Source: Gluconacetobacter azotocaptans (lineage in GTDB: Bacteria; Pseudomonadota; Alphaproteobacteria; Acetobacterales; Acetobacteraceae). Taken from it: 64,000 nucleotides of DNA. The DNA lies in contig NZ_JABEQF010000003.1 in NCBI RefSeq assembly GCF_014174355.1, positions 310,001 through 374,000 on the forward strand, read 5' to 3'. A model generated the notes under the pieces. That model saw nothing but the letters and a program-made list of their open reading frames with translations. It ran no database searches and was not told the origin of the DNA. Shown here one piece after another: positions 2,059-24,747 of the stretch; the stretch's first letter is position 1, and every line of letters begins with the position of its first letter. Made by a program: the position numbers and the translations under genes.

Positions 2059-3810
2059 TTATTGCTTCATCGCGATCGTGCTCTGAAGCAGCTGATCGGC
2101 TGTCGTGACGACCTTCGTATTGGCCGAATAAGCCTCCTGCGCGACGATCAGCGCGGACAGGTCGCTGGTCAGATCCGTGGTCGAGGACTCGACGTAGCCG
2201 ACCGACAGGCTTCCCGTCCCATTTTCACCAACGGTACCTGTCCGCGCGGCGCCGGACGACGCCGTGGCCGTATAGGCCTGGCCGTCGACGGCGTTCAGCC
2301 CATCGAGGTTGGCAAAATTGGTGAGCGCGACCTTGCCGATAAGCTGCGTGTCGCCATTGTCGAACACGGCCATGACCGAGCCGTCGTCCTGGATCTCGGC
2401 CCCCTGATATGTGCCGCTGGCGACGCTGTCGCTGGTCAGTGCCGTGGAATCCGTGCTCAGGGCGGTCGCGGACAGGGAGGCGCCGCTGAGATTCATGGCA
2501 TAAGTTGTGCCGTTAACGGTCGCGCTCAGAGCGCCCAATCCACCAGGAACCGCCGTCGGCGACGCCGGGTTCGAGATGTCTGTCACGGTTGTGGTGCCGT
2601 CAGCGTTGAAAACGACACTGTAAGGGACGGAACTGACCGGCGAGGTCCCTGAGGCGTCGTAAGGATCAACCGCCTGAACCGTCCACGTCGGAGGCGCGGC
2701 GGACGTCTGGGTCCACGCGGCCGATACGGGGGTTCCGCCAACATCCGTCGGCGTCGTCATGTACGTCTGCTGCGACCCTGTTTTGGTCCCCAGGGTGGTC
2801 GCCGCCATCGTCAGCGTGGGAGGAGTCGGTGTTGTGTCGAGCGTCAGGCCGGAGGCCTGGGGCGTGCTCGGGGTGCCCGTGGCGGCGGCCATCGTGGTGC
2901 CGCTGGTCCCCCCGATCGTGCCGAGGTCGAGCGTTATGTTCTGCGAAATCCCGTTGGCGCTCGTCGATGTGATGGTCGGCTCGACAGACGCCCCGCTCAG
3001 GGTCGAAGAATTGTAAGGGGCGCCGTCGCTGGTGCCGGTGACCGAGGCCAGGGCGCCATTGCTGTCGAAGGTCACCTGAAAATCGTTCGAGGCAATCTTT
3101 CCGGTGCCGTCCGCGTCATAGGCGCTGACATTCCAGACCAGAGGGTTTGTTGAACTCTGCGCCCAGGTCAGCGCAACCTTGGAGGCATTGCCGTTCGCGT
3201 CATACGTGGTGGCCGGCGCCGTCGTATAGCTCTGGTTGTAGGGACCCGTGGACGTGCTGCTCGGCAATGTTCCAACGGCGGCTGACAGCGTCAGGGTGGT
3301 CGTCTCCGTCGGGCGGAAGGCGACGTTGGCGATGTTGAGCTGCGTCAGGGACGTTCCAAGGGCGCCGGTCTTGGGGTCGACCTGGTACCCATCAAGGTAA
3401 TAGCCGCTGGTGTTGACCAGATAGCCGGCCTTGTTCTCGTAGAACTCGCCGTTCCGCGTGTAGTACTGCCGGTTCTCGAACTGCGTGGTACCGGACGTGG
3501 CCTGGCCGGTCTCCTTCGACACGTCGAACAGACCGCTGCCGGATATCGCCATGGCCAGATCATCGGTGCTGGCAGAGGCGGTGCCCTGCTGGCTCACATG
3601 CTGCACGGTGACGGCGCTGACCGAATCCGAAACGTCCTGAGACGTCGAGGAGCCGGCCATCGATCCGGCCACGAAGTCCTGGAACGCCGTCGAGTTGGCC
3701 TTGTAACCCACTGTCTGGCTGTTGGCGATGTTGTTACTGAGGTTCGTGAACGCGGTTGACTGCGCGTTGATGCCGCTGACAGCCGTGGAAAGGGCATTAA
3801 AAACTGACAT
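2059..3810 (-). CDS. flgE: Flagellar hook protein FlgE
   Basis: FlgE polymerises into the hook joining rod and filament. The N-terminus (SVFNALSTAVSGI, then NNIANSQTVGYK) is the rod/hook family signature, and the C-terminus ends with the conserved helix containing ALIVAQEAYSANTKV. At 583 aa it is longer than the usual 400 or so. The extra length is in the surface-exposed middle, where two similar blocks (about residues 170-300 and 325-455) each carry a W(A/T)Q-x-S/T...P-x-W-x-V pattern and a later VxFxxxG turn, suggesting an internal duplication. It is the last gene of the minus-strand series and is followed by a terminator. The start follows a GGGACGG-like ribosome site. Confidence 0.95.
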   Translation of the reverse strand: MSVFNALSTAVSGINAQSTAFTNLSNNIANSQTVGYKANSTAFQDFVAGSMAGSSTSQDVSDSVSAVTVQHVSQQGTASASTDDLAMAISGSGLFDVSKETGQATSGTTQFENRQYYTRNGEFYENKAGYLVNTSGYYLDGYQVDPKTGALGTSLTQLNIANVAFRPTETTTLTLSAAVGTLPSSTSTGPYNQSYTTAPATTYDANGNASKVALTWAQSSTNPLVWNVSAYDADGTGKIASNDFQVTFDSNGALASVTGTSDGAPYNSSTLSGASVEPTITSTSANGISQNITLDLGTIGGTSGTTMAAATGTPSTPQASGLTLDTTPTPPTLTMAATTLGTKTGSQQTYMTTPTDVGGTPVSAAWTQTSAAPPTWTVQAVDPYDASGTSPVSSVPYSVVFNADGTTTVTDISNPASPTAVPGGLGALSATVNGTTYAMNLSGASLSATALSTDSTALTSDSVASGTYQGAEIQDDGSVMAVFDNGDTQLIGKVALTNFANLDGLNAVDGQAYTATASSGAARTGTVGENGTGSLSVGYVESSTTDLTSDLSALIVAQEAYSANTKVVTTADQLLQSTIAMKQ

Positions 3811-15416: not shown

Positions 15417-16250
15417 TTAGAACAGCCCGGAGTAGATGCTTCCCGTCGACGTTGAGGAGCTGCTCGTGTCGAACAACGCCAGGATCCCTTCGTCGCTCGT
15501 GTCGCCTCCGAACAGATCCATCAGACTGGCCGGCTTGTCCGGCGTCTGGGGATTGATCTGCAGCATGGCGAGATATCGCTCGGCATATTGCTGGATTTCC
15601 TGAGGGGTCGACAGCTTCGTGAAATCAACCTTGTTCTGCAGCAGGCGGACCTGCTGGCTATAGTCGAGCGCCCCGAATTGATCGGGATCATAGCCGGAAA
15701 CCGTCTCGACGACCTTCAGCAGGGTGGGGTCCGACATCACTTGCGACAGTGTCGTGACGCTGCTCATCTTGCGCGTGAAATAGAGCGCGTTGCCGACTCC
15801 GTTGTCCTGATTGCTGTCGCTGTTCTCGAACTGGCGCTCCTGGAACATCGTGACGATCGAACTGATGGTGTCCGACGTGAATGGCGTGGTGCTCGCCGTC
15901 CCGTTGTTCTGGCCCCACGTGGTGAAGGCGTCGGCAAAGGCCAGCCATGTCGCATTGCCGGATTTCTTCGCAAGCGACGTGGAGGATGTCGGGTCCTGCG
16001 TCAGCAGGTCCTTGATCAGGGCGGTCTCTCCGGAAATGGAGCTGAGATTATAGGCGCCGAGCACAACCTGCAGCGCCGAATAGTTTTTCAGAAGACCATC
16101 GACGGAGGTGATCGAGGGCGCGGCCTTCTCGAAAGCGGCCGTCTCGTTTCTGGTCGTGGCATCCGTCTTGGCATAGTTCGCGGCCGCGGTCTCTTCATCC
16201 TTTTCGGCGCTGATATACGCGGCTACCGGAGAGATACTGCTGATGGCCAT
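15417..16250 (-). CDS. DUF1217 flagellar-associated protein
   Basis: The 277-aa protein matches the DUF1217 type, a family encoded almost only in alphaproteobacterial flagellar loci and of unknown function. Visible features are the start SISPVAAYISAEKDEE, a helical body with GYDPDQFGALDYSQQVRLL, and a Ser/Thr-rich C-terminus. The Ser/Asn/Gln content resembles exported axial proteins, and secretion through the flagellar system is possible but not shown. It lies between the chemotaxis genes and fliI in the same direction. Its stop codon touches the MITE-like element. Confidence 0.75.
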   Translation of the reverse strand: MAISSISPVAAYISAEKDEETAAANYAKTDATTRNETAAFEKAAPSITSVDGLLKNYSALQVVLGAYNLSSISGETALIKDLLTQDPTSSTSLAKKSGNATWLAFADAFTTWGQNNGTASTTPFTSDTISSIVTMFQERQFENSDSNQDNGVGNALYFTRKMSSVTTLSQVMSDPTLLKVVETVSGYDPDQFGALDYSQQVRLLQNKVDFTKLSTPQEIQQYAERYLAMLQINPQTPDKPASLMDLFGGDTSDEGILALFDTSSSSTSTGSIYSGLF

Positions 16251-16408: not shown

Positions 16409-16789
16409 TCAGAACAGATCGATTTCGCCGGAACGCTGCGTCGTGCCCGGCGCGTTGTCGCCGCGCAACACCCGCACGACCTCGCCAAGCTTCACCCCGT
16501 CATACAGGCCGGCCACCCGGATTGGGGTTTCAGCCTCGGAGCAGGACATCAGGTTCCTCAGAACCGTCGCGACAGCATCAATCGTCTGCGTCGCCAGGTC
16601 CAGCTTCTGCAGATCGCGTGCCCCCTTGTCGCCAAGTGCATGATTCTGCAAGCATTCGTCCACCGCACGCTGCGCATCCAGAAGGTCCCCGCAGGCCTGG
16701 TCCAGAAGCGACGCCGCCCGCCCGAGGACCTGCTGCACCGTGATCTCCGGGCTTGGCCTGTCCTGCGCAATGGCGGAATGCATTTCCAT
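16409..16789 (-). CDS. CheT/CheZ-like putative CheY phosphatase
   Basis: The protein (126 aa from ATG 16789) is mainly helical. It carries LDLATQTID with a DxxxQ pair (D64, Q68), which matches the catalytic DLTGQVI region of CheZ in spacing and surroundings. A small protein of this kind at the end of the rhizobial che operon is called CheT. The C-terminus is SGEIDLF. The start was chosen because AGGGAG lies 8 bases upstream; two upstream ATGs exist, at 16807 and 16843. It follows cheD by 28 bp and is last in the che series. Dephosphorylation of one or both CheY proteins is inferred from motif and place. Confidence 0.6.
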   Translation of the reverse strand: MEMHSAIAQDRPSPEITVQQVLGRAASLLDQACGDLLDAQRAVDECLQNHALGDKGARDLQKLDLATQTIDAVATVLRNLMSCSEAETPIRVAGLYDGVKLGEVVRVLRGDNAPGTTQRSGEIDLF

Positions 16790-16817: not shown

Positions 16818-17378
16818 TCAGAACAGTTCGATATCGGAGCCACACTCCCTTGCCCATTTGCGCTCGGCTTCCGCCTCGCGCCGGCTGTAGTCGACCTCCT
16901 GACGCCCGATGCCCTGTGCGTCGTGCACCAGATTCTGCTGCGCCCGCCCGGTGGTCGGCCAGAAACGGACCCGCCGGGCCTGCGTGCCGCCGAGGCTTTG
17001 CGAGACGCAGTTTATGCCTTCGTCCGAAAGATAGTGCTGGATGAAATAGATGTTCTCCTGCCCGATGCGGCCAAGGGTGGGCACGACGGCGGCGCCCCCG
17101 AACGCCTTGCACAGCAGACGATTGCGACTTCCGCCCGCCTTGAGAATTCCGTTCACCAGCCTTTCCATCGAATGGACGCCGAACCGCATTGCCATTTCAT
17201 CGTGGCTTTCGCCGCCGCCAGGCAGCAGAAAATGATTCATGCCGCCGACATGGGCGATGGGGTCGAACATGCAGACCGAGATGCAGGACCCCAGCACGGT
17301 ACCAAGGACGACCGAAGGGTCGTCCGAGATCGCGACATCGCCCTGCACAACGGTCGTGACTTTGGACGTGTGCGTCAC
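16818..17378 (-). CDS. cheD: Chemoreceptor glutamine deamidase CheD
   Basis: CheD deamidates glutamines on chemoreceptors. The 186-aa protein has the catalytic cysteine in LGSCISVCMFDP (C32) and histidine in GGMNHFLLPGG (H49). The C-terminal block IGRQEVDYSRREAEAERKW is followed by the tail SDIELF. Translation starts at GTG 17378, overlapping the cheY2 stop as GTGA. An upstream reading frame continues through cheY2 but is not part of this gene. Its neighbours are cheY2 and the CheT-like gene. Confidence 0.93.
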   Translation of the reverse strand: MTHTSKVTTVVQGDVAISDDPSVVLGTVLGSCISVCMFDPIAHVGGMNHFLLPGGGESHDEMAMRFGVHSMERLVNGILKAGGSRNRLLCKAFGGAAVVPTLGRIGQENIYFIQHYLSDEGINCVSQSLGGTQARRVRFWPTTGRAQQNLVHDAQGIGRQEVDYSRREAEAERKWARECGSDIELF

Positions 17379-17764
17379 GTTATAGGCCCGAACACCTTTT
17401 CCAGAACCTCGCGCAGTTTCGCCACGGTATATGGCTTGGCCAGGAAGTTGTTCACGCCGGCCTTGACGGCGTCCTGAACAAGGTCCCTGCTTGCCTCGCT
17501 GGTCAGGATAATGAATGCGACTTTCTGGATCTTCGGGTTGCCTCGGACGGCGCGCAGCAATGCAAGGCCATCCATGACCGGCATGTTGAAGTCCGAAATG
17601 ACAAGATGCGTCGGGTTCTGATCGAGATACTCGAGCGCCTCCTTGCCGTCCTTCCTCTGCGCGATACTCATGAAACCAAGTTGTGCCAGGCTGTTGGCCA
17701 GGACCTGGCGAATGGAAGACTGGTCGTCGACGATGAGTGCCTTGATCTGTGAAGCGGCTGGCAT
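17375..17764 (-). CDS. cheY2: Chemotaxis response regulator CheY (second copy)
   Basis: This stand-alone receiver (129 aa) has the full set of switch residues: D13-D14, phospho-acceptor D58 in LVISDFNMPVMDG, T88 in FIILTSEA, and K110 in FLAKPY. It follows cheB by 85 bp and overlaps cheD. Two-CheY systems in alphaproteobacteria often use one CheY at the motor and the other as a phosphate sink; which role applies here cannot be told from sequence. Confidence 0.93.
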   Translation of the reverse strand: MPAASQIKALIVDDQSSIRQVLANSLAQLGFMSIAQRKDGKEALEYLDQNPTHLVISDFNMPVMDGLALLRAVRGNPKIQKVAFIILTSEASRDLVQDAVKAGVNNFLAKPYTVAKLREVLEKVFGPIT

Positions 17765-17849: not shown

Positions 17850-18887
17850 TCAATACATTTGACTGGTCATGGCAGCGGCGCTGATCTGGCCAAGAGAAAC
17901 AATCCGTGCCGCCGCCCCAATCTCGGCGGCAACCCGCGGCATGCCATAGACGACTGCCGACGCCTTGTCCTGCGCGATCGTGCGGGCGCCGGCATGGCGC
18001 ATGGCCAGAAGCCCTTCCGCCCCGTCCCGCCCCATGCCGGTCAGGATGATGCCGAGCGCATCCTTGCCGGCCTGCCTGGCGACGGAATCGAACAATATAT
18101 CGACCGATGGACAATGGCCGTTGACCGGCGGGGACTTGACCAGCCGTGTCGCATATCCCCCGTCACGCCGCTCCACCACCGTGTGCCTGTCCCCACCCGG
18201 CGCGATCCGGACGGCGCCGGGCGTCAGCACCTCGCCATCCCTTGCCTCGCATATGGACAGGGCCGGGATCTTCCGGTCCAGGCTGCTGGCGAAACTCGCC
18301 GTGAAAAGGGCGGGCATGTGCTGGCAGACGATCACGGGCGGGCTCTGTTCCGGAAATCCCGAAAGCACTTCCCCAAGCGCCTCCACCCCGCCTGTCGAGG
18401 CCCCGATCGCGACCAGGCCGATCGAGTCCCCCCATGTCTTCGGCCGGTGGAGCACGGGCTCGGCACTCCGGCGCGGGGGCCTGGCGTCCGGATGGGAGTG
18501 CGCCGCCTGGATGACCAGCCGTGCCAGCCCGGCGAAGGCATCCCCGCCCACGACCGAGGCCGGTTTGGGGAAACAGTCGAACGCGCCCATCTGCAGCGCC
18601 GTTATCGCCGTGTCGGCGCCCCGTGCCGTCAGGCTGGACACCATGACCACCGGAATCGGGCGCAGCCGCATGATCTTCTCGAGAAACTGGAGACCATTCA
18701 TCCCCGGCATCTCGACATCCAGCGTGATCACATCCGGCTGGTCCTGGATGATCAGGTCCCGGGCCTCGATCGGGTTGGCCGCCTCGCCGCACACGACAAT
18801 CTCGGGCTGCTGGTCGAAAGACCGCCTGATGAGCGCCCGCATCGTCCGCGAATCATCGACGATAAGAACCTTGACCGGCTTCTCCAT
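17850..18887 (-). CDS. cheB: Chemoreceptor methylesterase CheB
   Basis: CheB removes receptor methyl groups and deamidates receptors when phosphorylated by CheA. The 345-aa protein has an N-terminal receiver with D11-D12 and phospho-acceptor D57 (ITLDVEMPG). A short linker leads to a methylesterase domain with the catalytic triad S164 (IGASTGG), H190 (CQHMP) and D288 (GMGRDG). It starts 3 bp after the cheR stop. Confidence 0.97.
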   Translation of the reverse strand: MEKPVKVLIVDDSRTMRALIRRSFDQQPEIVVCGEAANPIEARDLIIQDQPDVITLDVEMPGMNGLQFLEKIMRLRPIPVVMVSSLTARGADTAITALQMGAFDCFPKPASVVGGDAFAGLARLVIQAAHSHPDARPPRRSAEPVLHRPKTWGDSIGLVAIGASTGGVEALGEVLSGFPEQSPPVIVCQHMPALFTASFASSLDRKIPALSICEARDGEVLTPGAVRIAPGGDRHTVVERRDGGYATRLVKSPPVNGHCPSVDILFDSVARQAGKDALGIILTGMGRDGAEGLLAMRHAGARTIAQDKASAVVYGMPRVAAEIGAAARIVSLGQISAAAMTSQMY

Positions 18888-18890
18888 GGT

Positions 18891-19733
18891 TCAGGGTTCC
18901 TTCCTGTAGATGGTCGGAGCGACCTGCTCCAGGCCGCACTGATTTTTGGACGCCACCCTCTCGGAGTGACCGACATAGAGGAAACCGCCAGGTTCAAGCC
19001 GCTCGGCCAGGCGACACCACAGACGTTCGCGCGTGGCCTCGTCGAAGTAGATGACGACGTTGCGGCAGAAGATGGCGGCGAACGTACCCTTCATCGGCCA
19101 GTCGGCATTGAGGTTGAGAACACGGAACGCCGGAAGGCTGCGAATGCCGCCCGTGAAGCGCAGCGCGTCGTCGCCATAGGGTTCCATGAACCGGGATTGC
19201 TTCTCGGCCGAAATGGCCTCGGCTTCCGCCCTCGGGTAGATGCCGGCCGCGGCCTGCGAGACAACGTCGGAGTTTATGTCCGTCGCCAGAACGCGCACGT
19301 CATGCCCGTGCGCGTCCGGAAAGGCCGACAGGACAGACATGGCGATGCTCCACGGCTCCTGGCCCGTCGAACAGGCGGCCGACCACAGCCTTCCTCGCCC
19401 CCCGGCGCGGACCTGCGCGGCGAGACGCGGCACAACGACCTCTTCCAGATGCGTGAAATGGGTCTTTTCCCGGAAAAAGCTCGTCACGTTCGTCGTCAGG
19501 GCGCAGATGAGCTTTTCCATCTCGTTCCGGCCGCCAGGCGCCTGCACGAAATCGAGATACCTTTGGAACGAGGCGTGGCCGGCCTCGCGTACCCTGCGGG
19601 AAACGCGCGAATACACAAGCGTGCGCTTCGTGTCCGGGAAATATATGCCGGCTTCCTCCTGCGCTATACGTCGCACGCGCTGAAAATCGGCGTCCGTATA
19701 GTCAGGCTCACCGGCCGGCCGCATGGTGTTCAT
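18891..19733 (-). CDS. cheR: Chemoreceptor methyltransferase CheR
   Basis: CheR methylates receptor glutamates with S-adenosylmethionine. The 280-aa protein has the N-terminal helical domain (TSFFREKTHF), the SAM-binding region WSAACSTGQEPWSIAM, and the later IFCRNVVIYFDEATRE and GGFLYVGHSE blocks. It starts in an ATGA overlap with cheW (19730-19733). The upstream MCP ends in GWEEF, which resembles the pentapeptide docking site for CheR. Confidence 0.96.
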   Translation of the reverse strand: MNTMRPAGEPDYTDADFQRVRRIAQEEAGIYFPDTKRTLVYSRVSRRVREAGHASFQRYLDFVQAPGGRNEMEKLICALTTNVTSFFREKTHFTHLEEVVVPRLAAQVRAGGRGRLWSAACSTGQEPWSIAMSVLSAFPDAHGHDVRVLATDINSDVVSQAAAGIYPRAEAEAISAEKQSRFMEPYGDDALRFTGGIRSLPAFRVLNLNADWPMKGTFAAIFCRNVVIYFDEATRERLWCRLAERLEPGGFLYVGHSERVASKNQCGLEQVAPTIYRKEP

Positions 19734-20191
19734 TCAGACGCAACACCTTCGACAAGCTGGTTGACGACGGATTCCAGTCGAAGGACGCCGATCATCCGGT
19801 TGCCGATCATGACAAGTCCGCTAAGACTGCTGCAGTCGTCGGACACCGACTGGATGTCACTGCCCTGGATGTCGGCCATGTCGATGACACGATCGACCAG
19901 AAGCCCGCACATGATGCCCTGTGTCGATTCGACAATCACCACGACGCGGCGCGGGTTATCGAGCTGCGGCGGCACATTGAGATAAATCGCCAGGTCAATC
20001 AGCGTCAGGATGATGCCGCGCAGATTGATGGCGCCGCATACATAAGGCGGGGCGAAAGGCAGGACGGTCGTTTTTTCAAATCCCCGAATTTCACGGACGC
20101 TGAGGATTGGTATGCAATATTCCTGGTCGCCCACGGCGAACACGATCATCTTCACCGCTTTGGACTCCGCGGCCTTTTCTTCTTCCGTCAT
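19730..20191 (-). CDS. cheW: Chemotaxis coupling protein CheW
   Basis: CheW links receptors to CheA. The protein (153 aa) has the CheW fold pattern MIVFAVGDQEYCIPILSVRE, then PPYVCGAINLRGIILTLIDL and a terminal hydrophobic block. The ATG at 20191 was chosen because GGGAAG lies 6 bases upstream; a TTG six codons earlier (20209) also opens the frame. It overlaps cheR and follows cheA by about 40 bp. Confidence 0.95.
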   Translation of the reverse strand: MTEEEKAAESKAVKMIVFAVGDQEYCIPILSVREIRGFEKTTVLPFAPPYVCGAINLRGIILTLIDLAIYLNVPPQLDNPRRVVVIVESTQGIMCGLLVDRVIDMADIQGSDIQSVSDDCSSLSGLVMIGNRMIGVLRLESVVNQLVEGVASE

Positions 20192-20234
20192 GTCCGGCTT
20201 CCCACTCAAATGCTGATCGCTCTGATGTTGCTTA

Positions 20235-22502
20235 TTACGCCGCCAGCACTGCGCGGGCGTCTGATAATTTGGTATTGATGCGCCCGACGGCAGAGGCGAT
20301 CAGCGCGGGGGCGTCCAGGATCAGGGAAACGCTGCCATCGCCCAGAATGGTCGCCGCCGACACGCCGGGTATCCGCCGGTAGTTCTTCTCCATGCTCTTG
20401 ATGACGACATGCGCCTGATCACGGATTTCGTCCACGACAAGGCCCGCCCGTGCGCCTGATTCGTTCTCGACGATCAGCATGACGGCGCCGTCCCGGGGTT
20501 CGTCGGACACCGCAGCCGACAGGCCCAATTCCGATCCCAGCGGCACCAGCGGTATGCAGTCGCCGCGGATCGAAACCATTTTCTTTCCGTCCGGCAGGAC
20601 ATACGTGTCCTGCGGCTTGATGATCATGGTCTCGACCACGGACGAAACCGGAATGACCATCGTGGCGCCGCCGGCAACGATCAGCATGCCGTCGAGAACG
20701 GCCAGCGTCAGCGGCAGGCTGAGGCAGAACACGGTTCCGTTGCCCGGCACGCTCTGGATGGTGATCCGGCCGCCCAGGCTGAGGATCGCCTGCTTGACGA
20801 CATCCATCCCCACCCCACGGCCGGAAAGATTCGATATCGTATCGGCTGTCGAGAAGCCGGGTGCGAAGATGAGATTGTTGATCTCGTCGTCGGTCAGGAC
20901 CGCGTCCGGCGCGATGATGCCGCGCTTGATGGCCGTCGCAAGGACACGCTCGCGATTGATGCCGCCCCCGTCGTCCTTGATCGTGATCAGGATGTGCCCC
21001 GATCGGTGGCTGGCGGAAAGAAGGATATGGCCGATCGCCGGCTTGCCGGCCGCAAGGCGATCCTCCACCTTCTCGATACCGTGGTCGATCGCATTGCGCA
21101 GCATGTGGGTCAGCGGGTCGGACAGCTTTTCGACCAGCGTCCGGTCGACTTCCGTATCCTCCCCCTCAAGCGTCAGGACGACGTCCTTCCCGGTCATGGA
21201 GCAGGCCTCGCGCACCACGCGCTGCATGCGCTGGAACACGCTGCGTACCGGCTGGGCCCGGACCGCCATGACGGCATCCTGAATGTCGCGTGTCAGGGAC
21301 TGCATGCTGGCGATGCACTCCCCCAGTTCGCGCGGCATCGAAGCATTGTTCCGGCGACACTGGGATTCAAGCGCCGCCTGGGCGATGACCAGCTCGCCGA
21401 CGAGATCCATCAGATTGTCGATCCGGGGGAGATCGACACGGATCGTGGCCTGTTCGGTCCGCCGGACATTCGCTCCATTCGCGCCGCTCGCGACAGCCGC
21501 GGGCTGAATGGCGTCGGGGCGGGATACGGCAGGGGTGGCCTGCGCCGCCGTGACAGCGGAAGATGTCTCCGCAAGAGCAGGGACAGCCGGTTCCGGCGGC
21601 GCGACATCCAGCGGGGTCTCGCCCGACGGCTGCGCATCCGTGGCAGCTATTGCCTCGCCGCCTTCCGACGCCGGGTCGCCTTCGCGGGAAATCGTGAAGT
21701 CGCAGACATCGCCGCCCCAGTCGAACACCGATTGGACGGTGTCCTCCAACACTTCTGCGGGAAGAACGGCGCGCCACGACAGATAGGACCGGTCGGGCTC
21801 CAGCGCGTCGAAGGGCGGAAGAGCCGACGCGTCACAGGTCACCGTGATCTCGCCGCCCTCGACGGCCACCGCCGCGTCTGTAAGGCCGATCAGGATGTTC
21901 CTGGCGTCATCCCCGCGCGCGTACATGGCGTCATGCGGGCAAAACGTGACGATCAGCGGCGCAGGGGCCTGAACGGGGGCGGGGTCGAATCCGAAATCCA
22001 GCCCGAAATCCACCGGCACCGGCTCGAAATCCATGGGGACGGGCACGAAATCCATGGGAATCGGAACGAAATCCGAGGGGACGACGTCGTCGGTCTTATG
22101 CGCCTCCGCGTTGCCCCCGATGATGGACTCAAGTTCGATCTGGCTCTCGGCGATGCGTCCCGGATCCACCGACGGGCCGCCGTCGCGCGCCTCGACCACC
22201 AGGTCGCTGAGTACGTCCATCGCCTTGAGGAAAATCTTGACGACGTCCTGCGTGGGCGCAACACGACCCGATCGCACACCGTCGAGCGAGCTCTCGAACA
22301 CATGTGCGAAACGCACGAGGTTTTCGAGGCCGAACGACGCCGCGCCGCCCTTGATGGAATGCACGGCACGAAAGACGGCGTTGATGGTTTCCTGCTCGGA
22401 CTCGCCGTCCGACAGCGCCGACAGCCCGCGCTCGAGTTCCTGAAGCTGCTCGTCGCACTCCTGGAAGAAGACCAGGAGGATGTCGCCCATGTCACCACTC
22501 AT
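20235..22502 (-). CDS. cheA: Chemotaxis histidine kinase CheA
   Basis: CheA autophosphorylates and passes phosphate to CheY and CheB. The 755-aa protein has the Hpt domain with H48 in FRAVHSIKGGAASFG, a linker with DF-x-P-x-P repeats at about residues 144-170, and a region that may be P2. The dimerisation helices follow from about residue 350. The ATPase domain has N-box THMLRNAIDHG and G boxes IKDDGGGI and LSGRGVGMDVV, and a CheW-like domain forms the C-terminus. GGAGGAG lies 8 bases before the ATG. Confidence 0.97.
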   Translation of the reverse strand: MSGDMGDILLVFFQECDEQLQELERGLSALSDGESEQETINAVFRAVHSIKGGAASFGLENLVRFAHVFESSLDGVRSGRVAPTQDVVKIFLKAMDVLSDLVVEARDGGPSVDPGRIAESQIELESIIGGNAEAHKTDDVVPSDFVPIPMDFVPVPMDFEPVPVDFGLDFGFDPAPVQAPAPLIVTFCPHDAMYARGDDARNILIGLTDAAVAVEGGEITVTCDASALPPFDALEPDRSYLSWRAVLPAEVLEDTVQSVFDWGGDVCDFTISREGDPASEGGEAIAATDAQPSGETPLDVAPPEPAVPALAETSSAVTAAQATPAVSRPDAIQPAAVASGANGANVRRTEQATIRVDLPRIDNLMDLVGELVIAQAALESQCRRNNASMPRELGECIASMQSLTRDIQDAVMAVRAQPVRSVFQRMQRVVREACSMTGKDVVLTLEGEDTEVDRTLVEKLSDPLTHMLRNAIDHGIEKVEDRLAAGKPAIGHILLSASHRSGHILITIKDDGGGINRERVLATAIKRGIIAPDAVLTDDEINNLIFAPGFSTADTISNLSGRGVGMDVVKQAILSLGGRITIQSVPGNGTVFCLSLPLTLAVLDGMLIVAGGATMVIPVSSVVETMIIKPQDTYVLPDGKKMVSIRGDCIPLVPLGSELGLSAAVSDEPRDGAVMLIVENESGARAGLVVDEIRDQAHVVIKSMEKNYRRIPGVSAATILGDGSVSLILDAPALIASAVGRINTKLSDARAVLAA

Positions 22503-22520: not shown

Positions 22521-22910
22521 TCAGGCGGTAACCCGGCGGATCGCCGCAACAAGACTGTCGGTGCTGAACGGCTTCACGATCCACCCCGTGGCGCCCGCCT
22601 CGCGCGCGCGGGCCTTCTTCTCGGGGCCGCTCTCCGTCGTCAGGACGATGATCGGGATATGCCGGAACTGATCCATCTTGCGGACAGCCTCGATCAGCCC
22701 GAAGCCGTCCATGCGCGGCATGTTGATATCGGTGATGATCGCGTTGGGCGGCGGGTTTGCGGCCTGCAGCACTTCCAGCCCCGCCACCCCATCCTCGCCC
22801 TGGATGACGTCGTATCCGCCACCCTCCAAGGCCTTGCGCAGCATGCCCTGCATGGTCCGAGAATCATCAACCGTCAGGACACGTATGGCCTGTTTTCCCA
22901 CCATATTCAT
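22521..22910 (-). CDS. cheY: Chemotaxis response regulator CheY
   Basis: This 129-aa single-domain receiver has D15-D16, phospho-acceptor D61 (IITDINMPRMDG), T91 and K113 (GWIVKPF). It begins at ATG 22910 in an ATGA overlap with the STAS gene; the frame stays open upstream but that part is not expected to be translated. It precedes cheA, so it probably belongs to the same transcript as the kinase. Confidence 0.94.
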   Translation of the reverse strand: MNMVGKQAIRVLTVDDSRTMQGMLRKALEGGGYDVIQGEDGVAGLEVLQAANPPPNAIITDINMPRMDGFGLIEAVRKMDQFRHIPIIVLTTESGPEKKARAREAGATGWIVKPFSTDSLVAAIRRVTA

Positions 22911-23251
22911 TGCTCCTTGGGAGGCATGGGCAGTTCCGACAGAAACTCGCTGGCCCCGAAGAGGACATAAGCTTCCCTGATCTGCTCTGACGGAGCGACG
23001 AAAGGGCATCCGCTTGCGATGAGAATCTGCAGACACAGGCCGCCGATATAGGTGACACCCGATGCATCGAGATGGACCTTACCGGCCCCGGCCTGTTTCC
23101 GCCCCTTGGCAATCATCTCCTTGAGAGCGAAGGCGGCGGAGGTATCCAGGCGCTCGGGCAGTGTCAGGCAGACCGCAGGATCGGAAGGGGTGGCATCCAC
23201 CTTGGAGGATGACGACGTCCCGTGCTCTCTCAGCAGAGAACTGGACGCCAT
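22907..23251 (-). CDS. STAS-domain chemotaxis protein
   Basis: The 114-aa product resembles small STAS or anti-sigma-antagonist-like proteins found next to cheA in alphaproteobacteria. It shows the central pattern KVHLDASGVTYIGGLCLQIL, with a serine/threonine-bearing loop where anti-sigma antagonists are phosphorylated; the residue at that site appears to be Thr or Tyr rather than the usual Ser. The start at 23251 overlaps the MCP stop as TGATG. Its role is unknown. Confidence 0.75.
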   Translation of the reverse strand: MASSSLLREHGTSSSSKVDATPSDPAVCLTLPERLDTSAAFALKEMIAKGRKQAGAGKVHLDASGVTYIGGLCLQILIASGCPFVAPSEQIREAYVLFGASEFLSELPMPPKEQ

Positions 23252-24747
23252 CAAAACTCCTCCCATCCCTGGTCGGGCGATGTTGTCGGAAGCGGGCTGC
23301 TCAGCATGGGGGCGGGGGCACGGTTGGCCTTCTCGACCGGCCGCGGGGGCGAGAAGGCCGAAAGGGCCTCGCTGACTGCGGCGCTGTCCCGGCCATTGTT
23401 GATCTTGAACCGGCTGAGGGTCTGCGCCAGCGTCTTGGTTTCGGCGGTCAGGTTGTGGCTGGCGGCCGTCGTCTGCTCGACCATGGCGGCATTCTGCTGC
23501 GTCACCTGGTCCATGTCGCCGATCGACGCCGTGATCTCGGACAGGCGTTGCGCCTGATCCTGCGCGGAGACCGAAATTTCCTCGACACGGATCGAGATGT
23601 TCTGCGTGCTTCCGGCGAATTCGGTCAGGTAGGTGCCGGTCTGCTGCACCAGGTCGACGCCCTTGCCGACCTGATCGGCGGAAACGGAAATCAGGCGCTT
23701 GATCTCGCTGGCAGACTTTGCCGACTGCTCGGCAAGAGAGCGAACCTCCTGGGCCACCACCGCGAAGCCGCGCCCCGCGTCACCTGCGCGTGCCGCCTCG
23801 ACAGCCGCGTTCAGGGCCAGGACATTGGTCTGGAAAGCAATGCCGTCGATGACCGAAATGATCTCGCCAATGGCGTCGGACGATTTCTTGATCCCGTCCA
23901 TCGCCTGCGTCGTCAGGACCATGACGCCGGTGGCCGACTTGACCTTTTCCAGGGCATCCTTCGTTTCGGTACTGGCGGCCGTGCATGTCTTGGCGGTGCG
24001 CTGCACGCCATCGGCGATAGTACGGACGGCCGCGGCCGTCTGGCCCAGGTTCGCGGCCTGCTTCTCGGTCCGCTTCGCAAGATCGTCGGATGCGGTCGAA
24101 ATCTCGCTGGCGCCGGTGGCGATCAGGTCGGAATTGCTGGCGACGGCGCGCAGCGCCTCGCTCAGGCGCGACGCCGAGTGATTGAACGCATCACGCAGCG
24201 GCGCGAACTCTTTATCGAAGATGCTCGCCTTGATCCGGATCCGCAGGTCGCCCTTGGCCATTTCCGCCAGCGCCGAGCCCAGGGCGTCGATGACTTCATG
24301 CGTCTGGTTGTCACGTTCACGGCTGTTTGCAAGGGCGTCCCTGATCTCGGCGCTCATCGCCTCCTGGCGCGTCTTGGCCTCGGCCTGCTCCCGCACGCTG
24401 CGCGTGAACTCGACCATCACGCGGGCCAGGCGTCCCGTACCGTCCTTGTTGTCGAGGAACGGAACATCGCCCCGGACTTCACCGCGTCCCAGTCGCTCGC
24501 CGATATCGACAAGGGTTTCAAGCGGCGTGGTCACCACCAGCGTCAGCAGGCCCCAGATGGCGAACACGACCAGTTCGCCAAACCCGAGGGCAGCCATGTT
24601 CATGATGAACATATGCTCGACCGGCTCGCTGATGAAATATCCGACCGCCTCGATAATGATCTGGAGCATAAGATACGCTTCCAGACACAGCATCACGACC
24701 CTGATCTTGACGCGGAGCGGGGCGTCCTTGTTCAGCCACTTCAACAT
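23251..24747 (-). CDS. Methyl-accepting chemotaxis protein without periplasmic domain
   Basis: The 498-aa receptor has two N-terminal hydrophobic segments (about residues 16-38 and 50-72) separated by only a dozen residues, so it lacks a normal periplasmic ligand domain. A HAMP-like region follows, then a signalling domain with the hairpin tip [20 protein letters not shown] and [15 protein letters not shown]. The C-terminus GWEEF resembles the CheR/CheB docking pentapeptide. It heads the che transcript and may serve as a receptor for energy state, membrane state or internal signals; the ligand is unknown. Confidence 0.92.

Follow-up and report, generated by a model that had tools for sequence, protein, structure and literature searches.

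The window under study, i.e. the whole analysed stretch of 64,000 nucleotides from Gluconacetobacter azotocaptans, harbours on its minus strand a chemotaxis operon with the gene order STAS-CheY-CheA-CheW-CheR-CheB-CheY-CheD, the neighbours being assigned by Pfam, which terminates in a short open reading frame starting 28 nt past the cheD stop codon (Table 1). The initial annotation had proposed this frame, without a strand, as the gene that follows cheD at the end of a che operon; its position is confirmed and the identification of CheD and of the operon by Pfam supports the proposed context. A purine-rich GGAGAGGGAG is located just 5' of the start codon (judged by eye), and a second ATG is found two codons downstream of the chosen one, with which the residue numbers would drop by two. 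The next gene past the CheT-like one, also on the minus strand and immediately adjoining, is that of a DUF1217 protein (PF06748; window 15417-16250).

Table 1. Chemotaxis genes and protein features of the locus (window coordinates)
Feature	Position	Strand	Basis and remarks
CheT-like open reading frame	16409..16789	-	126 aa plus stop, ATG to TGA; conservation and profile homology
C-terminal tail GEIDLF of the CheT-like protein, proposed docking peptide	16412..16429	-	alignment, tail count, model (low confidence, probably disordered)
LQKLDLATQ motif, residues 60-68 (Q61, D64, Q68), putative catalytic site within helix 2	16586..16612	-	sequence, alignment, model
cheD	16818..17378	-	PF03975, E 1.9e-21; GTG start picked by eye
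C-terminal tail SDIELF of CheD, of one kind with that of CheT	16821..16838	-	sequence, tail count
Second cheY, between cheB and cheD	17375..17764	-	PF00072, E 4.6e-26
cheB	17850..18887	-	Pfam
cheR	18891..19733	-	Pfam
cheW	19730..20209	-	Pfam
cheA	20235..22502	-	Pfam
First cheY	22521..22907	-	Pfam; start position tentative
STAS protein in cheS position	22907..23266	-	PF13466, E 1.2e-5, 25.9 bits, under the Pfam cut-off of 29.2
MCP with GWEEF end (ordinary CheR/CheB pentapeptide type)	23251..24747	-	Pfam

The open reading frame is kept in 13 of 14 genomes of the genus and displays, compared with the 83%-identical copy in genome G006, a dN of 0.089 and a dS of 0.32, which together rule out a chance open frame. 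In the one exception, G011, neither the CheT-like gene nor CheD was found (the CheD search being run without a positive control), as if the whole operon had been lost together. Beyond the genus, a search of 150 genomes of the family gave matches at E 0.01 in 14, of which 8 were counted as real, and 6 (G067, G159, G135, G056, G132 and G116; E 3e-4 to 9e-3) were set aside as frames without Q..D...Q. A scan of a viral collection gave no relative of the open reading frame.

As stated by the initial annotation, the 126-aa product contains LDLATQTID with D64 and Q68 in a DxxxQ arrangement; the motif reads L60-Q61-K-L-D64-L-A-T-Q68 and continues with T-I-D71. In CheZ, the glutamine positions the water that attacks the phospho-aspartate of CheY, and the aspartate orients the active-site lysine of CheY. 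Q61, D64 and Q68 of the CheT-like protein lie on the polar face of helix 2, at 144-176 degrees from its hydrophobic face irrespective of whether the three residues are included in the calculation.

With respect to established families, the product finds no match in Pfam at E 1 beyond a sub-threshold HTH_ParB (E 0.09), with CheZ (PF04344), CheC (PF04509) and CheX (PF13690) all unmatched, and no match in NCBIfam at E 10. The CheT model NF047973, which has a curated cut-off of 200 bits, leaves the open reading frame unmatched up to E 10, with the HMMER filters dropping most weak matches, and a class-wide profile search with the genus-level alignment A1 identified 3 of 387 genomes, including its own, and did not reach rhizobial CheT. 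As plain family and class-wide searches thus failed to connect to the rhizobial proteins, cheD was taken as the anchor: named genomes were scanned with a CheD alignment and the best 80 of 585 relatives kept, so that the locus set leans towards close relatives of the window CheD. Relatives were picked as open reading frames in which [LIVMF]Q..D...Q has an appropriate spacing from the C-terminal end, which gave 54 loci, or 53 after dropping a CheW-like frame (by eye) in L112, the CheT of which was later found by HMM. An HMM of the 53 picks and the window protein detects CheT-type genes at E <1e-3 in 61 of these best 80 of 585 cheD loci, 53 of the 61 being training rows; all 8 newly found proteins possess Q..D...Q, preceded by A or S and hence outside the regex. 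The loci come from Sinorhizobium, Rhizobium, Agrobacterium, Hoeflea, Hyphomicrobium, Caulobacter, Brevundimonas, Phenylobacterium, Rhodobacteraceae, Acetobacter, Gluconobacter, Bombella and Acidocella, among others, and in all seven Rhodobacteraceae matches the CheT gene lies upstream of cheD. In the resulting alignment A3 (52 rows; L116 and L132 excluded), Q61, D64 and Q68 are invariant, by construction for the regex-chosen rows because the motif had been used to pick the 53 relatives, while L101, L108 and F126 are nearly invariant without having been selected for. The three motif residues are also invariant in 14 of 14 rows of A1, derived from a plain protein search and with motif-less rows set aside beforehand.

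An HMM of 45 CheT sequences, excluding Acetobacteraceae and also a Proteobacteria MAG (L104), ranks the open reading frame first among 548 window ORFs at E 8.6e-15; the value is 5.9e-8 with the motif masked and 9.9e-6 with motif and tail masked, and the next-best ORF in the searches of the window reaches only E 0.3-0.5. Among the same 548 ORFs it also comes first with HMMs of 11 Rhodobacteraceae and Caulobacterales CheT (E 1.2e-10), of 3 Acidocella-like CheT (E 0.0029) and of 29 rhizobial CheT alone, here at just E 0.0017; with the motif masked in the rhizobia-only HMM, it is not among the three matches listed. By hhalign, Acetobacteraceae CheT reach 94.9% against the rhizobial set and 97.9% against the 45 others. 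The product is outside PF04344 and outside NF047973 as curated. Applied to 12 CheT proteins, NF047973 matches 7, with 235 bits for Sinorhizobium americanum (L094), 46 for Hyphomicrobium (L088), 28.5 for L107, 20 for L104, 18.9 for Caulobacter (L096), 17 for Acidocella (L134) and 16.3 for L015, which is from the Acetobacteraceae and shares 46% identity with the window product; it misses 5, namely the window protein, L003, L016, L058 and L062. Judged by these results, CheT looks like one graded family, the rhizobial end of which would be spanned by NF047973.

In S. americanum, the order assigned by Pfam is CheA-CheW-CheR-CheB-REC-CheD, followed by the gene with the 235-bit score, so that, with Sinorhizobium compared from CheA on, the window frame occupies the operon slot of CheT, directly after cheD at the end. 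Operon position, homology by profile and a matching order of predicted elements thus uphold the proposed kinship with rhizobial CheT, and the identity and anatomy of the gene are established. That the family is little described outside rhizobia roughly holds, but Caulobacter crescentus is listed among species with CheT homologues in the accessible part of PMC12654446, and an NCBIfam model, NF047973, exists.

The notion that this lineage is without a standard CheZ is upheld, as the best PF04344 score in the genome is 12.7 bits, under the cut-off of 30.7. CheC and CheX are also CheY phosphatases; the best CheC (PF04509) score is 16.7, under the cut-off of 22, and CheX (PF13690) has no match in the genome at E 10. 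A direct profile comparison of CheT and CheZ by hhalign is negative (0.9%). Among 289 genomes of the class, CheZ occurs in 111, CheD in 32 (E 1e-15) and CheT in 8 (E 1e-5), the last count stemming from a loose first look that may miss CheT. CheZ is found in none of the 8 CheT genomes (p 0.025) and, among the 32 CheD genomes, in 0 of 7 with CheT versus 18 of 25 others (p 0.001), p-values that are generous because four of the eight CheT genomes belong to one family (f19). The weaker, uncounted CheT matches in G250, G296 and G376 concern frames of 674-731 aa, and CheZ is present in all three genomes.

The C-terminal tails of CheT and CheD follow the common pattern [ILVMFYWT][DET][LFMIAV][FW], with up to two residues more. 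It ends 45 of 54 CheT and 72 of 80 CheD (best 80 of 585 cheD loci) and is found in 5 of 1680 other stop-to-stop frames of at least 150 aa on those loci, all five of them chemotaxis proteins, namely one CheA, a second CheD and three CheT that the set had so far lacked. Within the window, the pattern is restricted to CheT, CheD and one 90-aa frame, of 354 frames. The alphaproteobacterial CheD tail is mostly [IVL]E[LF]F and CheT-like (72 of the best 80 of 585 loci); L119 carries a tandem cheD pair (1649-2197 and 2339-2878, plus strand) with a DVELF end on each, and a CheA (Pfam) of Allosediminivita pacifica (L081:3-1307, plus strand) has an end of the same kind, DMELFDA.

Receptor pentapeptides are aromatic at positions 2 and 5 and mostly acidic elsewhere, according to the accessible part of PMC7390727. 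The corresponding pattern x[HFYW]xx[HFYW] fits 29 of 54 CheT tails and 0 of 80 CheD tails (best 80 of 585), and the window tail EIDLF, with Ile at position 2, is outside it, so that a reading of the tail as receptor pentapeptide is no more than a half fit. Receptor-type ORFs without Q..D...Q possess a W..F or W..Y end in 19 of 31 cases in 33 cheD regions and in 15 of 17 cases in the 80 loci (best of 585); this receptor end is a signal different from the CheT/CheD tail. On the other hand, FliM of the window (PF02154) contains LDQSEIDSLLG near its N-terminus, alphaproteobacterial CheZ end in peptides such as SQAEIDALLASFD (among the 17 of 20 loci listed), and GEIDLF resembles, by eye only, the EID.LL of FliM and CheZ. 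Because of the FliM EIDSLL, the CheZ end peptides and the conserved C-terminal region of CheZ, described as the CheY-P-binding part in the accessible part of PMC7750401, we lean towards CheY~P as the partner of the tail, with CheR second.

A partner CheR is at the centre of the likeliest alternative, in which the CheT homologue would mainly bind CheR via an MCP-like C-terminal peptide and so tune the methylation of receptors, while acting on CheY as a phosphatase weakly or not at all. S. meliloti CheT complexes with CheR (PMC12654446, accessible part), and 29 of 54 CheT tails fit the receptor pattern, receptor pentapeptides being aromatic at positions 2 and 5 (PMC7390727, accessible part); however, the window EIDLF and all 80 CheD tails (best of 585) are outside that pattern, and nothing would then explain why Q..D...Q sits on the polar side of helix 2. 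This alternative we regard as improbable.

The description of the product as helical is upheld by an AlphaFold model of moderate confidence (mean pLDDT 73.9) with four helices (18-49, 54-83, 92-95 and 102-108), which supports a helical hairpin with D64 and Q68 within helix 2; residues 113-126 are under pLDDT 50. The order of helices agrees with the model of S. americanum CheT (strand 5-7, helices 8-35 and 44-72, strand 80-82, helices 83-88 and 93-100; mean 81.9), the tail of which is equally of low confidence. Foldseek against the PDB, with both models as single-chain hairpins, yielded no match that reached E 0.001, and CheZ is absent from the best 50 of 267 matches for the window model and the best 50 of 114 for the S. 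americanum model, so that the hairpin is supported and the CheZ fold unconfirmed. When PDB sequences were searched with A3, most matches were helical proteins and coiled coils, both natural and designed, with CheZ again absent. The CheT model published for S. meliloti has been likened to CheZ (PMC12654446, accessible part). Among the weak Foldseek rows of the window model, 4qpk, a bacterial phosphotransferase, and the DHp-containing kinases 6paj and 4q20 would accommodate a receiver-binding hairpin related to DHp or ChpT-like proteins, which sequesters or localises CheY rather than dephosphorylates it; yet every E-value in that table is above 0.5, the S. americanum model has other top rows, the only two histidines of the product are H4 and H50, with H50 in the hairpin turn of the model, and sequence homology points to CheT. 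This alternative we regard as very unlikely.

An additional context for the motif is provided by 33 cheD regions taken from the remaining 31 CheD genomes. CheT (E <1e-5) is found in 6 of them, and 16 of the 33, none of the 6 CheT regions among them, encode an MCP-like ORF with QFQDxxxQ, here termed MCP-Z and selected by the rule of an MCP core combined with Q..D...Q close to the C-terminus. The tail is present in 15 of 16 MCP-Z versus 3 of 31 motif-less MCP ORFs. MCP-like proteins with Q(F/V)QDxxxQ were observed in cheD regions of CheT-less alphaproteobacteria (L163, L170, L172-L175, L177 and L180-L191), and an [IV][DE]LF tail on every listed MCP-Z except that of L189; L177, L182 and L185 have tail and motif and fall outside the MCP-Z rule. 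In the 80 named loci (best of 585), the only match to the rule, a 1025-aa protein of L074 with TQDSDQLMQ and a DWEEF end, was read as a chance motif. In six MCP-Z tested with Pfam, the MCP signalling domain is the sole match above cut-off. The C-terminal module of MCP-Z (an alignment of 13 proteins, one of which, L179, is without the Gln) aligns by hhalign with CheT at 89.7% and with CheZ at 82.1%, compared with at most 8.5% for three upstream MCP pieces, at most 0.5% for reversed alignments and at most 0.8% for 20 column-shuffled modules; by subset of CheT, the values are 84.6% for the 45-sequence set, 74.6% for Acetobacteraceae and 26.6% for rhizobial CheT alone. These profile comparisons are suggestive of MCP-Z as a bridge between CheT and CheZ, and MCP-Z proteins are possibly receptor-like CheY phosphatases. 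Two proteins of 180-195 aa with LQS.D...Q, weak CheT profile matches (E 0.03 and 0.017) and VTFF and DVLF ends, in L169 (7815-8399, minus strand) and L179 (7060-7605, minus strand), respectively, are possible intermediates. In the literature searched, with most subscription journals outside its coverage, neither a CheD or CheT tail nor a CheZ-like receptor is named.

A role of the shared tail in proteolysis or localisation, and not in docking to CheY or CheR, would suit its C-terminal position, its low model confidence and its occurrence on CheT, CheD, MCP-Z and one CheA; against it, many receptors of the same clusters end differently, with W..F/Y. We regard this reading as highly implausible.

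The open reading frame is thus, with good probability, a divergent acetic-acid-bacterial CheT that would dephosphorylate CheY as CheZ does. Taken as a whole, the initial annotation is supported and right in substance; the role as CheY phosphatase we infer from the Q..D...Q motif, the absence of CheZ and the activity of S. meliloti CheT, which contains DXXXQ and accelerates the loss of phosphate from one CheY (PMC12654446, accessible part). In the proposed picture of catalysis, substrate choice and tail partner, the hairpin would dimerise into a four-helix bundle, with the polar face of helix 2 presenting Q61, D64 and Q68; by analogy with CheZ, Q68 would position the water that attacks the phospho-aspartate of CheY, with D64 setting the orientation of the active-site lysine of CheY, whereupon one of the two CheYs would be dephosphorylated faster and the signal end. 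A flexible linker would carry the C-terminal GEIDLF, a peptide proposed to tether the enzyme to CheY~P in the first place, given the likeness of EIDLF to the EIDSLL of the organism's own FliM and to IDALL-type CheZ ends, or else to CheR.

A wider proposal, which we put forward tentatively and consider doubtful at present, is that CheT represents the compact form of a class-wide module, a Q..D...Q helix with an x[IVF][ED][LF]F-COOH tail, that is also fused to a soluble MCP domain in MCP-Z and links to CheZ, while the tail shared with CheD constitutes a new docking code. If so, phosphatase and receptor deamidase would meet at a common partner, either CheY~P or CheR; the ending of the signal and the adaptation of receptors would then respond to a single output and be linked in a simple way, and MCP-Z would be an unrecognised kind of receptor-like phosphatase. 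The switch-off of CheY in CheZ-less alphaproteobacteria is little explored, and the analysis provides a named candidate in an organism whose protein is left without a name by Pfam and NCBIfam; relatives from several orders are at hand for comparisons.

Compared with known systems, CheC and CheX are families other than that of the open reading frame, with none above cut-off in the genome. CheZ (PF04344) has in common with the product the DxxxQ on a hairpin helix, followed by a linker and a short C-terminal peptide (anatomy from the accessible part of PMC7750401), but carries FQ at -2/-1 of the Asp where the product has Q at -3; its hairpin is much longer, and the profile link runs via MCP-Z proteins only. 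MCP-Z proteins differ by a length of 354-547 aa (stop to stop) and the MCP signalling domain (six tested) and share the Q..D...Q spacing, the following helix and the tail, with the 89.7% of hhalign extending over the C-terminal half of CheT. CheT of Sinorhizobium meliloti and other rhizobia (NF047973) shows 17-26% identity to the product in the aligned rows and ends mostly in DF[DE]xF, whereas EIDLF is without the aromatic second pentapeptide residue and the product is unmatched by NF047973. The two have in common, on the other hand, the last position in the same che operon, a similar length, the LQ..D...Q motif, the predicted helix order, a G[DE]x[DE]xF C-terminus and profile homology.
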